Source: Dyella marensis
GTDB taxonomy: Bacteria; Pseudomonadota; Gammaproteobacteria; Xanthomonadales; Rhodanobacteraceae
Assembly: GCF_900112865.1 (NCBI RefSeq)
Contig: NZ_FONH01000032.1
Span: forward strand, 1 to 33,125
DNA length: 33,125 bases
Direction: 5' to 3'
Position 1 is the stretch's first letter; each line of letters begins with the position of its first letter. The notes under the pieces are model-generated. The model worked only from the letters and a program-made list of their open reading frames with translations. It was not told the DNA's origin and searched no databases. Below are positions 181 to 33,125 of the stretch, piece after piece. Both the position numbers and the translations under genes were made by a program.

Positions 181-383
181 CTTCAAGTTGGAATCCTTCT
201 CCCTCCGGCGACCCGAAGGTAGTCCCCGTGGGAGAGCACGCGGGGAGCGCACATGGATGTGCGCGGCTCTGAGGAGCGAGGAAGGTGGCGGCAGCCGGAT
301 GAGGGTACGGGCGCAGTCGAGCGCATCACTCCGCCCGTACCCTCACCCCAACCCCTCTCCCGGAGGGAGAGGGGCTCTGCGTT
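181..383. repeat. Family A bipartite palindromic repeat, interrupted copy
   Basis: The gap 63-467 holds no credible gene. This element has the same parts as the copies at 9751-10158 and 29866-29976: CTTCTCCCTCC (about 197-207), GAAGGTGGCGGCAGCCGGAT (281-300), GAGGGTACGGGCG and its complement CGCCCGTACCCTC (301-344), then CCCCTCTCCC / GGGAGAGGGG around 353-374. Between the two arms of the first hairpin lie about 72 extra bases (209-280) that other copies lack. This insert carries its own small palindrome, GCGCACAT-GG-ATGTGCGC (247-264). Short ORFs reading through here encode the repeat and are not genes. Confidence 0.8.
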
Positions 384-6085: not shown

Positions 6086-6250
6086 GTAGGTTGGGGTGAG
6101 CCGCAGGCGAACCCCAACAATGCGATGCGCCTGGAGTCAACGATGTTGGGGTTATGGGCTGCATCAGCAGCCCACCCTCTGGGCCATCCGCTGCGCGGAT
6201 GTTCGCTACGGCATCCTGCCTTCGCAGTCGCCTGCGGCCCACCCCAACCT
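6086..6250. repeat. Family B palindromic repeat, long composite form
   Basis: It opens with GTAGGTTGGGGTGAGCCGCA and closes with CCCACCCCAACCT. In between are nested hairpins: GGGCTGC-ATCA-GCAGCCC, then GCCC/GGGC, then ATCCGC-TG-CGCGGAT. The last 97 bases before the closing arm (6142-6238) recur at 33029-33125 with six differences. It fills the space between the GH92 stop and the serine hydrolase start, about 11 nt beyond the GH92 stop, so it could shape the 3' end of that mRNA. Confidence 0.85.
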
Positions 6251-9750: not shown

Positions 9751-10158
9751 AGCTCCGCTCCGCCCGTACCCTCATCCGGCTGCCGCCACCTTCTCCCGGT
9801 AGGGAGAAGGGTTCCACTTTGAAGGTTGAGGAATAACCGTAGCGTCCGTGCGTAGCTCGACGTAGAGCCCCTCTCCCTCCGGGAGAGGGGTGGGGGTGAG
9901 GGTACGGGCGGAGCGCGGAAGTAATGCGCTCCGCTTCGCCCGTACCCTCATCCGGCTGCCGCCACCTTCTCCCGGAGGGAGAAGGGTTCCACTTTGAAGG
10001 TTGAGGAATACCGTAGCGTCTGTGCGTAGCTCGACGCAGAGCCCCTCTCCCTCCGGGAGAGGGGTTGGGGTGAGGGTACGGGCGGAGCGCGGAAGTGATG
10101 CGCGCCGCTCCGCTCGCACCCTCATCGGCTGCCGCCACCTTCTCCCGGCGGGAGAAGG
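9751..10158. repeat. Family A palindromic repeats in a tandem array (about 2.3 units, period about 175 bp)
   Basis: The landmark CGCCCGTACCCTCATCCGGC begins at 9761 and again at 9937, and a diverged copy begins at 10111, giving periods of 176 and 174 bp. Each unit has a CTTCTCCC/GGGAGAAG hairpin, a linker TTCCACTTTGAAGGTTGAGG, a CCCCTCTCCC/GGGAGAGGGG hairpin and the GAGGGTACGGGCGGAGC arm. The last unit is truncated after GGGAGAAGG at 10158. The array fills most of the 659-bp gap between the GH92 and MFS genes, which are divergent. Open frames through it, including the upstream extension of the MFS frame, are repeat translations. Confidence 0.9.
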
Positions 10159-21006: not shown

Positions 21007-24000
21007 ATGAGCGACACGCCTGCCTCCCGCCCCGTTCCGTCCGATGCCCGCCTGCGCACGCTGCGCCAGGCGCTGGACGGCGTTTCCAGTCGCGATTTCG
21101 GCCGTTTGCTGGGGCGCTGGCGCGGGCTGTCGCGCCGTGCCGACGAGAACAAGCTGGAGGCGCTGGCCGCCGACGTCGAGCGTTCCGCGGCAAAGCGCCG
21201 CGCCCGCGCCGCGGCCAAGCCGACGATCCGCCTGGACGAAGCGCTGCCGATCAGCGCGCGCGCCGACGAGATCGTCGAGCTGATCCGCCGCCACCAGGTG
21301 GTGGTGATCGCCGGCGAGACCGGCTCGGGCAAGACCACCCAGCTGCCCAAGCTGTGCCTGGCCGCCGGCCGTGGCGAGGCCGGCATGATCGGCTGCACCC
21401 AGCCGCGCCGCCTGGCCGCGCGCTCGGTGGCGCGCCGCGTGGCGGAGGAACTGGGTACCCAGCTCGGCGACCAGGTCGGTTTCCAGGTGCGCTTCAACGA
21501 CCAGGTGTCCGAGCGCAGCCTGGTCAAGTTCATGACCGACGGCATCCTGTTGGCCGAGACCCAGGGCGATCCGTGGTTGTCGGCCTATGACACGATCATC
21601 ATCGACGAGGCGCACGAGCGCAGCCTCAACATCGATTTCCTGCTCGGCTATCTGAAGCGGCTGGCGGTCAAGCGGCCGGACCTGAAGATCATCGTCACCT
21701 CGGCCACCATCGATACCGCGCGCTTCGCCGAGCATTTCGGCAACGCGCCGGTGGTGTCGGTGGAAGGCCGCGCCTATCCGGTCGATGTGCGCTGGCGCTC
21801 GCTGGACGCGCTGGGCGAGCGCCGCGGCCGCGACATGCAGCAGGGCGGCGCCGAGCACATCGCGGCGGTGCTGGACGAGCTCACCCGCGAGGATCCGCGC
21901 GGCGACGTGCTGGTGTTCCTGCCCGGCGAGCGCGAGATCCGCGACGCGCATCTGCTGCTGTCGCGCCGGCAGTACCGCGAGACCGAGATCCTGCCGCTGT
22001 ACGCGCGCCTGTCCGCCGCCGACCAGGACCGCGTGTTCAAGCCCGGCACCAAGCGCCGCGTGGTGCTGACCACCAACGTGGCCGAGACCTCGCTCACCGT
22101 GCCGCGCATCCGCTATGTGATCGACTCCGGCCTGGCGCGCGTGAAGCGCTACAGCCAGCGCAGCCAGCTCGAGCGCCTGCACGTGGAACCGATTGCGCGC
22201 GCCGCCGCCGACCAGCGCAAGGGCCGCTGCGGCCGCGTCGGCCCAGGCATCTGCTATCGCCTGTACGACGAGGCGGACTACAGCGCGCGCGCCGCGTTCA
22301 CCGATCCGGAACTGCTGCGCTCCTCGCTGGCCAACGTGATCCTGCGCATGCTGTCGCTGCAGCTGGGCGAGGTGGACGAGTTCCCGTTCCTGGAGGCGCC
22401 CGATCCGCGCGTGGTGGCGGATGGCTACCGGCGCCTCGCCGAGATTTCCGCGATCGACGAACACAAGCGCCTGACCGCGGTCGGCCGCACGCTGGCCAAG
22501 CTGCCGATCGACGTGCAGCTGGCGCGCATGCTGGTGGAGGCGAACCAGCTGGGCAGCCTGCGCGAACTGCTGGTGCTGGTGGCCTTCCTCAGCATCCAGG
22601 ATCCGCGCGAGCGGCCGGCGGATGCGCGGCAGCAGGCGGACCAGGCGCATGCGCAGTTTGCGGATGCGAAATCGGATTTTGCCGGCGTGCTGAATCTCTG
22701 GCGCGCGTATGACGAGTCGCACAAGGAGCTGACGCAGTCGAAGCTGCGCGACTGGTGTTCGCGGCATTTCCTGAGCTTCATGCGGATGCGCGAGTGGCGG
22801 GAATTGCATCGGCAGCTGTTGCTGGTGGCCGAGGAGTTGGGATGGAGCCTTGCCGCTTCCGCGCCTGTCGGCACGGATGGAGTGCGGGGGGGGAAGGGTG
22901 CGCCCGTGCTGCACGCGAAGAAGCAGGCTTCAAATAAGCGTTCGGGCGAGCCCCGGCCCCTCACCCCAGCCCTCTCCCCGGAAGGGAGAGGGAGTGACGA
23001 TGACGATCAGCGTCTCTATGAAGCCGTGCATCGCAGTCTGCTTGCCGGTCTGCCGACCCAGGTCGGACACAAAGACGAAAAAGGTCTCTATCGCGGCACC
23101 CGCGAGCGCCGTTTCCAGGTGTTCCCCGGCTCGGCCCTGGCGAAGGTGCCGCCGAACTGGATCTTCGCCGCGCAGATCCTCGATGTCGGCGGCAAGGTGT
23201 GGGGCATGATGTGCGCCCGCGTGGAGCCGGCGTGGATCGAGCAGCAGGCCGCGCATCTGCTCAAGGCCAGCTGCCGCGACGCGCACTGGTCGCGCAAGCG
23301 CGGCACCGTGGTGGCCTACGAGCAGGTGAGCCTGTTCGGCCTGACCCTGGTGGAGCGTCGCCCGGTCACCTTCCAGCAGCAGGATCCGCCACTGGCGCAC
23401 GAGATCTTCCTGCGCGAAGCCTTGGCGCGCGGCGATATCGATGCGCGCGCCGACTTCGTGCGCGCGAATCTGCGCGTGATGGAAGACGCGTGGGGTATCG
23501 AGGCGAAGCAGCGCCGCGAAGGTTTGATCCGGCATGAGGACGAACTGGCTGCGTTCTTCGAGGGCAAGCTGCCGCAGGACATTGCCAGCAGCCGCGGGCT
23601 GGATGCGTGGTACAGCCGCGCGCGGCCGGCGGAGCAGGCGGCGTTGCGCTGGTCGCTGGACGATGTGATGGCGGGTGGGGCGGGTCTCGATCCGAAGGCG
23701 TTTCCTGCTTCGCTGGATATTCAACCGCAACGCTATCGCCTCGAATACCGCTTCGTCCCCGGCGACGACGCGGACGGCGTCACGCTGCACCTCCCGCTGG
23801 CGATGCTCAACGCATTGCCGGCCGCACGCTGTGAATGGCTGGTCCCCGGCCTGCTCGGCGAAAAGGTCGCCGAACTGATCCGCGGCCTGCCCAAGCCGCT
23901 GCGCCGCAACTTCGTGCCGGCGCCGGATTTCGCGCGCGCCTTCGTCGAAGCGGAAGCGCCGCGCGACGAACCATTGAGCAAGGCGCTGGCCGCCTTCCTC

Positions 24001-29865: not shown

Positions 29866-29976
29866 CCCCTCTCCCGTCGGGAGAGGGGTTGGGGTGAGGG
29901 TACGGGCGGAGTGGGGCGTTGCACTCCGGCCGGACCCTCATCCGGCTGCCGCCACCTTCTCCCGGAGGGAGAAGGG
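29866..29976. repeat. Family A bipartite palindromic repeat, complete copy
   Basis: The end hairpins are CCCCTCTCCC-GTC-GGGAGAGGGG (29866-29888) and CCTTCTCCC-GGA-GGGAGAAGG (29955-29975). Between them GAGGGTACGGGCGGAGTG loosely pairs with CACTCCGGCCGGACCCTC. It begins 3 bp after the SDR stop codon, so its first hairpin may act as the 3' end of the upstream transcript. This is the cleanest single copy in the window. Confidence 0.9.
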
Positions 29977-32976: not shown

Positions 32977-33125
32977 GTAGGTTGGGGTGAGCCGCAGGCG
33001 AACCCCAACGGACCTTTCCAGGTGGCGCGATGTTGGGGTTACGGGCTGCATCGGCAGCCCGCCCTTCGGGCCATCCGCTACGCGGATGTTCGCTACGGCA
33101 TCCTGCCTTCGCAGTCGCCTGCGGC
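32977..33125. repeat. Family B palindromic repeat, long composite form, running off the window
   Basis: It begins GTAGGTTGGGGTGAGCCGCA 10 bp after the lpoP stop. The hairpins GGGCTGC-ATCG-GCAGCCC, GCCCTTCGGGC and ATCCGC-TA-CGCGGAT follow. The segment 33029-33125 matches 6142-6238 at 91 of 97 positions. The closing arm (CCCACCCCAACCT at the other copy) would lie beyond the window edge. It may act as the 3' end of the mrcB-lpoP transcript. Confidence 0.85.

Follow-up and report, generated by a model that had tools for sequence, protein, structure and literature searches.

In-frame intergenic repeats in a loop of the helicase HrpA of Dyella marensis and its relatives in the Rhodanobacteraceae

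The hrpA gene of Dyella marensis and its repeat arm

The window analyzed here, a 33,125-nucleotide stretch of the Dyella marensis genome (contig NZ_FONH01000032.1), carries an open reading frame for the helicase HrpA, whose Pfam domains (DEAD/Helicase_C, HA2, OB_NTP_bind and DUF3418) occur in the usual order (Table 1). Within this gene lies a repeat at positions 22958-22992, in which CTCACCCCAGCCCTCTCCCCGGAAGGGAGAGGG starts at 22960 (residue 674) and gives LTPALSPEGRG in the frame of the helicase, just as the sequence-only reading, which had reported an arm with a 9-bp hairpin translated ahead of the OB fold, had described it. When the protein was aligned by phmmer with the structures of E. 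coli HrpA, the match broke at query residues 636/692, which correspond to E. coli residues 611/618, leaving a linker of 55 residues in D. marensis against 6 in E. coli. Since the alignment stops at 636 and resumes at 692, the insert is placed in the loop preceding the OB fold. AlphaFold2 modeled the linker region with a mean pLDDT of 54 and its linker blocks at 31 to 37, free of secondary structure, in a model that is weak overall and in which much of the OB region scored hardly better, so that it is of little help for the linker.

RNA folding of the arm predicted a 9-bp stem closed by a 5-nt loop, with an energy of -18.8 kcal/mol. The isolated arm was no better folded than shuffles of the same composition (z of -0.77), and the whole linker was somewhat better folded than its shuffles (z of -2.4). 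In relatives, the arm is the second of a doublet; D. marensis (genome G000 of the set) retains this second arm only, and the stretch that probably represents a decayed first arm gave no match to the strict arm pattern over 22857..22900.

Table 1. Features of the Dyella marensis window, with positions counted from its first nucleotide
Feature	Position	Strand	Evidence
HrpA open reading frame, 1365 aa	20941..25038	+	ORF list; Pfam; match to E. coli HrpA structures 9ggr/6zww
Variable linker, residues 637-691, at the boundary of HA2 region and OB fold	22849..23013	+	Break in the phmmer alignment
Probable decayed first-arm remnant (SAPVGTDGVRGG; PSPLRGEGRGEG in relatives)	22857..22900	+	Inferred from position beside G001/G003/G004
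Extended 21-type repeat arm (GAGCCCCGGCCC + CTCACCCCAGCCCTCTCCCCGGAAGGGAGAGGGAG)	22948..22994	+	Second arm of the doublet of relatives
Hairpin stem, 5' half (CCCTCTCCC)	22970..22978	+	RNA folding
Hairpin stem, 3' half (GGGAGAGGG)	22984..22992	+	RNA folding
Core of intergenic copy, 22-type	342..361	+	Pattern match
Core of intergenic copy, 22-type	9881..9900	-	Pattern match
Core of intergenic copy, 22-type	10055..10074	-	Pattern match
Core of intergenic copy, 22-type	29879..29898	-	Pattern match

The arm pattern matched exactly at 161 places in the 5.0-Mb D. marensis genome, and a reversed-pattern control matched at none. Two spacings can be distinguished. One, of 22 bases (CCCTCACCCCAACCCCTCTCCC), characterizes the four intergenic copies of the window, whose core has 112 exact copies genome-wide; the other, of 21 bases (CCCTCACCCCRRCCCTCTCCCC), is that of the hrpA copy, which thereby falls into a sister subfamily shorter by one base. 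This 21-type was found in 15 exact copies with the longer pattern, and in 16 exact copies, or 26 when up to one mismatch was allowed, with the shorter one. A 12-base upstream extension, GAGCCCCGGCCC, accompanies 6 of these 26 copies, that of hrpA included, and is also present in the hrpA copy of G001. In-frame copies in a convincing gene amounted to 2 of the 25 21-type copies examined (26 known), against 0 of the 100 22-type copies examined (112 known). Further copies flagged in the same genome by the GC3 screen (L148 of the 21-type; L298, L308 and L313 of the 22-type) had odd translations and were judged spurious. The earlier statement that the same DNA is strictly intergenic here is therefore not quite right: the other copies of the window are indeed intergenic, but they are of the 22-type, the hrpA copy is of the 21-type, and lhr holds a second 21-type copy within a gene. 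The identity of the hrpA segment with genomic repeats and its in-frame position are established.

The 21-type was found by exact pattern in 74 of the 147 family genomes, with, for example, 112 copies in G001 (where hrpA lies on a contig of Dyella sp. SG609), 133 in G052 and 218 in G025. At the places listed, it often forms an inverted doublet, a minus arm followed by a plus arm, and the inverted pairs of the listed genomes lie 74 to 145 bases apart, start to start. The repeat is thus like the REP superfamily in being a palindrome of 20 to 40 bp, of high copy number, mostly intergenic and often arranged as inverted dimers. It is also like the Rickettsia palindromic elements (RPE) in occurring both between genes and in frame within a conserved gene from whose homologues elsewhere it is missing. 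The GTAG/CGTC tetranucleotide that tags the REP superfamily was absent around the hrpA copy, and Rfam gave no match over the window at gathering score. The flanks of the listed repeat copies differ between genomes, and a GTAGG-type flank stands at the start of roughly half of the 15 listed G001 copies (CCGTAGGTCCC and variants), by which related tagged subfamilies may exist.

Further repeat structures were also noted. Repeat arms form tandem arrays of about 144 bases at three places of the D. marensis genome (G000:C24:143041-143497, C25:381629-381938 and C28:197237-197548), and another family, CGTAGGTTGGGGTGAGCCGCAGGCGAACCCCAAC, which is 34 bases long and includes perfectly inverted copies, lies at window positions 6086, 20276, 20354 and 32976. 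A 98-base repeat, 94% identical between its copies, occupies window positions 6141-6238 and 33028-33125; the second copy ends the contig, and the assembly may break at repeats.

HrpA linkers across the Rhodanobacteraceae

HrpA was matched in 144 of the 147 family genomes. Linkers were taken from 91 of these 144 genomes and from named loci, the best 80 among the matches listed, which belong to Dyella, Rhodanobacter, Frateuria, Fulvimonas, Luteibacter and others; after removal of duplicates 140 remained, of which 117 were readable by the final expression and 23 were dropped. The linkers ranged from 12 to 144 residues between conserved flanks. A recognizable repeat was present in 82 of the 117 and absent from 35, and family A, to which the hrpA arm belongs, occurred in 57, mixed rows included. 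By type, we counted 55 linkers with A, 13 with B, 6 with H1, 4 with H2, 2 with F, 1 with A+B, 1 with A+H2 and 35 without a repeat. These labels were partly set by hand, because the A and B patterns overlap: 31 rows were first marked A+B, and their translated linkers, once read, gave 11 B and 19 A, with 1 kept as both; in addition, 2 rows marked B were set to none and 2 marked A+F to A.

In relatives, the family A doublet reads PSPLRGEGRGEG, followed by 17 to 51 residues (median, 27) and then LTPALSPEGRG. Strict arm patterns recovered both arms in 35 of the 57 family A rows, one arm in 17 and neither in 5, and mismatch-free stems were seen in 27 of the 40 first arms and 27 of the 47 second arms found. 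The other types are built from different DNA. Type B is palindromic (CTCCCCCTGCNNGCAGGGGGAG) and is translated as APPPARRGRLGGG together with TPPQPSPASRGG; types H1 and H2 consist of inverted pairs of the heptamers GAGTCCC (read ESRVPSP) and GTTCCCC (read RSPFPVP), respectively; and type F is the GTCATTCCCGCG element, read SFPRKRES. The two mixed rows hold a B palindrome pair between family A arms (L206) and heptamers beside a family A arm (L198). All 13 Luteibacter-type rows, a starred group of the tree, were without repeats, with one of the none labels (G037) set by hand. The family A copy of hrpA was found at the same position in the sister species G001 and G002 and is decaying in G002; hairpins were decayed or missing in G002, G103, G112 and G005.

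The sequence-only reading had expected relatives to lack residues at this position between clean flanks, and many HrpA proteins without family A do lack the insert, as does that of E. coli. Its view of the element as an accepted protein linker also stands, because the relatives vary exactly at the linker and the flanking domains are intact on both sides. The existence of empty sites is established.

As the next point, the type of repeat in HrpA was compared with the repeats of the same genome. By exact pattern, A is present in 74 of the 147 genomes, B in 36, H1 in 21 and H2 in 17; of the five repeat types that occur at one site, these four were counted as genomic repeats. At least three genomic A copies were found in 41 of 43 genomes with A in HrpA, compared with 10 of 36 others (Fisher test, 2e-10). 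The same threshold gave 6 of 8 compared with 14 of 71 for B (p of 0.003) and 2 of 2 compared with 4 of 77 for H1 (p of 0.005), and was not significant for H2 (1 of 1 compared with 7 of 78; p of 0.1); all of these tests cover 79 genomes and ignore kinship. In a kinship-aware test, just 3 pairs could be used for A, and 2 for B, which is too few. The link of linker type to genomic copy number is established on these counts. The B palindrome, for instance, occurs at 21, 32, 24 and 22 places in G043, G104, G125 and G145, all of which have B in HrpA, the GTTCCCC pattern has 399 overlapping matches in G007, and the GAGTCCC pattern has 27 in G045 and 9 in G022. There are exceptions: G115 and G014 have an A motif in HrpA and no exact genomic copy, and G093 and G031 have B in HrpA and a single exact copy. 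G025, with its 218 copies of the 21-type, has an HrpA without insert and no Y1 transposase match.

A Y1/RAYT transposase was considered as the engine of family A and rejected, as there was no association with copy number: at least three A copies were present in 31 of 51 genomes with Y1 and in 20 of 28 without it (p of 0.46; 79 genomes). A search with PF01797 at an E value of 0.001 gave no match in G001, G025 and G052 (copy numbers above), in G012 (85 copies) or in G054 (43 copies), and only a weak one (6.9e-4) in the D. marensis genome. G022 has 18 Y1_Tnp matches, many of them identically scored, and an HrpA linker of GAGTCCC heptamers without family A.

Next, the linker types were placed on a tree built from the flanking HrpA protein of the 117 rows, with the linker excluded. 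Linker type requires 31 changes on this tree, where 7 is the minimum possible and shuffles give 54; the starred branches alone force at least four changes for A, three for B, two for H1, two for H2 and one for F. Family A is nevertheless clustered, with 19 changes compared with 39 in shuffles. Close neighbors can be of wholly different type: Dyella choica (L197, H2) adjoins D. flagellata (G103, A) at a branch with a support of 93, which is not starred, and L195 (B) falls into one starred group together with three A species.

The history of the arms themselves was approached through 25 sequences chosen for having both arms intact, with 60 flanking codons on each side. Fourfold sites differed in 16 to 21% of comparisons within the HrpA arms, compared with 32% upstream and 42% downstream. 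This divergence is lower than in the flanks, which simple drift of the arms does not explain; either a constraint on DNA or RNA or renewed copying from the genomic repeats must come in as well. A T in place of C at stem position 3 (6 T:A, 1 T:G and 1 T:C) was always accompanied by an A at one base outside the stem, and all 31 C:G cases and the single C:A case have a G at that outside base. The low fourfold divergence and the linked stem variant would both follow if arms had been replaced as a whole by copies from elsewhere in the genome; hairpin constraint would explain the former. On the other hand, the hrpA arm of G003 has CCAG, where CCAA (in one case, CCGA) is found in the remaining listed copies of that genome; in G001 and G054, the upstream part of the hrpA arms (GAGCMCC-type) is unlike that of most other listed copies. 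Since these differences from the copies of the same genome speak against frequent conversion, vertical inheritance with occasional replacement is the best reading of the arm history.

Helicase loops as hosts of repeats and the origin of the hrpA segment

To see which other genes hold such copies, 86 loci of 21-type copies were screened for frames open on both sides, and 10 candidate frames were read. Besides hrpA, this yielded at least an Lhr-type helicase of D. marensis and the mfd gene of G146. The D. marensis Lhr (G000:C36:91459-92043; L265 and L141) has an in-frame 21-type arm with FTPSPQRGEGWGEG in a loop of 63 residues, compared with 9 unaligned residues in mycobacterial Lhr, for which a structure is solved. 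The mfd gene (L254, G146:C1:194197-197245) contains three in-frame repeat doublets, 153 bases apart, in an insert of 162 residues between positions matching E. coli residues 411 and 425, where E. coli has 13. Lhr loops were readable in 14 of 30 loci and were judged by eye. Nine had A- or B-like inserts or remnants, namely, family A-like inserts in G000, G001 and G002, A-like pieces in G018 and G020, a B doublet in G003, G007 and G023 and a collapsed B remnant in G004; the other five (G005, G008, G016, G022 and G024) were short and empty, and G005 is of the same genus as the D. marensis genome. At thirteen places behind the matches of the Lhr query in G001 to G004, G012 and G023, considered as possible in-gene copies, the motif-bearing frames resembled 5' extensions or antisense frames. 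The exception is G004 (contig C33, L385), in which Lhr has, in addition to the collapsed remnant of the first loop, another repeat-like stretch, APSPQPSPRGGEG, toward its C-terminal part.

Altogether, we consider it likely that the hrpA segment is an inherited, in-frame 21-type repeat of REP/BIME-like kind, derived from an inverted doublet, and that helicase loops recurrently capture, lose and swap repeats. The loop of HrpA between the HA2 and OB-fold parts would tolerate very different inserts, and helicase loops of the Rhodanobacteraceae (HrpA, Lhr and one Mfd) would serve as landing places for repeats. Entry may be favored by the abundance of the repeats in the genome and by reading frames that are mostly open: of the 6 frames of the consensus arms, 5 or 6 contain no stop codon. 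An inserted repeat would survive if the protein still folds, and would then decay by substitution and deletion until other repeat families replace it. Capture without damage is plausible because the arms are stop-free and because distant homologues have only short loops at these places. Conserved domains and an open frame lie on either side of the insert, and from this sequence HrpA is predicted to function with it. We infer that the repeat was inserted, and did not arrive by gene conversion or templated copying, and that it is nearly neutral in the protein; neutral tolerance alone leaves the recurrence of nucleic acid translocases unexplained.

Other origins of the segment were weighed against this reading. 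That a proline- and glycine-rich linker resembles the repeat by chance has a negligible probability: the linker is GC-rich and of low complexity, but it fits a 20-base pattern exactly and shares a 12-base extension with 5 other copies, the reversed-pattern control gave nothing, the repeat is present elsewhere in the genome, and the order of the doublet is that of intergenic copies. It is also extremely improbable that the intergenic family A of the window moved recently into hrpA of this genome. The arms are strongly alike, but the spacing is that of a different subfamily (21 compared with 22) and sister species carry the same arm at the same site, by which such a move is ruled out, and none of the 22-type copies examined was in frame in a convincing gene. 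The sequence-only reading had taken the insert as direct evidence that family A is mobile. The hrpA copy, inherited and of the sister subfamily, gives no such direct evidence; repeated entry is indicated instead by the relatives that carry unrelated families at the site. For the same reason, a single ancestral insertion of a 21-type doublet, followed by vertical descent under peptide or DNA constraint with the variants as divergence, is contradicted for the site as a whole, and we regard it as unlikely. The clustering of family A on the tree agrees with it, as do spacers that are alike within groups and the GAGCMCC-type upstream part that hrpA copies share even where, as in G001 and G054, most of the other copies listed differ. 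However, it leaves unaccounted for that the site also holds B, H1, H2 and F, as well as the A+B and A+H2 rows, and the linked stem variant looks as if arms had been replaced as units.

A use of the RNA structure itself was weighed as well, namely, that the hairpin pair of the hrpA mRNA slows ribosomes and could thereby let the level of HrpA be tuned through what HrpA itself does, with various hairpin repeats recruited to one task. Stalled ribosomes are rescued by HrpA in E. coli (PMC13159725), which fits such a loop. Repeat linkers also fold better than dinucleotide shuffles, with median z values of -4.3 for A (54 rows), -4.8 for B (13 rows), -4.0 for H1 (6 rows), -2.8 for H2 (4 rows) and -5.0 for F (2 rows), compared with -0.5 in 31 repeat-free rows; the whole linker of G007 reached -6.9 (a partial fragment, -0.7). 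The mismatch-free stems in more than half of the arms found and the lower synonymous divergence of arms than flanks point the same way. Nevertheless, strong folding comes with any inverted pair, so that repeat linkers must fold strongly and this proves no use. D. marensis is without the first arm, the hairpins of the four genomes named above are decayed or absent, Luteibacter-type HrpA has none, 22 of the 57 family A rows match only one arm pattern or neither, and lhr and mfd carry the same kind of insert, all of which argues against a strict need for the hairpin. We therefore find a functional hairpin quite unlikely. That the linker of hrpA serves convergently for regulation, with hairpin pairs re-installed by different lineages, pausing that reports and adjusts ribosome rescue, and repeat families that are interchangeable since the mRNA hairpin alone counts, is decidedly improbable. 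The recurrent capture, loss and replacement of inherited repeats is the reading that we retain.

Known repeats within genes and the meaning of the HrpA loop

The HrpA loop amounts to a natural, densely replicated experiment on how selfish intergenic repeats become protein. With one loop filled by several unrelated repeats in dozens of species, and with empty, nested and decaying cases beside them, the rates at which repeats are captured, lost and replaced become measurable. It also lets one ask whether helicase loops are merely tolerant or are preferred targets, a question asked in print for repair genes in 2013. For annotation, it carries a warning, since protein motifs like PSPLRGEGRGEG and LTPALSPEGRG stem from the translation of a repeat and do not mark a domain.

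In-frame intergenic repeats within genes are already known, as intragenic REPs and as the coding palindromes of Rickettsia. In the work on intragenic REPs (PMC3733652, BMC Genomics 2013), GTAG- or CGTC-tagged REPs are described inside open reading frames, as single elements or dimers that add tens of residues; many of their hosts are proteins of DNA repair or proteins that act on RNA, among them RNA helicases. In recB of two Xanthomonas species, a REP occupies about the same site, and flexible linkers or loops are mentioned. These elements resemble the hrpA repeat as palindromic intergenic repeats inside open reading frames. In contrast, the hrpA repeat has no GTAG/CGTC tag and does not track Y1 transposases, and in HrpA five repeat types occur at one site across a bacterial family. 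The main text of that paper makes no mention of hrpA, lhr or mfd, and its Additional file 3 may list relevant genes.

Rickettsia palindromic elements are likewise described (PMC2229807) both between genes and fused in frame in conserved protein genes, and a test with guanylate kinase is cited there for the tolerance of an RPE by an enzyme. They are 105 to 146 bp long and belong to Rickettsia, whereas the hrpA arms are of about 40 bases, often paired, GC-rich, found in Rhodanobacteraceae and recurring at fixed loops. The enterobacterial RU/ERIC repeats (PMC2759123) and the QMITE of Coxiella (PMC5896051) are small repeats that extend or enter open reading frames in frame; they are longer and MITE-like compared with the hrpA arms, and recurrent capture at a single site is not described in the available portions of those reports. 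The H1 and H2 linkers are closest to the heptameric G-rich repeats of Xanthomonas (GGGAATC type), being similar 7-base units in inverted pairs. The Xanthomonas heptamers are reported to be under-represented in coding regions (PMC4692102); unlike in that report, heptamers form the HrpA linker in 10 of the 117 rows (11 with L198).

In titles and abstracts of the open-access literature, neither hrpA, lhr and mfd as recurrent capture sites nor HrpA-linker repeats in Dyella or Rhodanobacter were found. Compared with these known systems, what is new, as far as seen, is the scale and the turnover of unrelated repeat families at one helicase loop.
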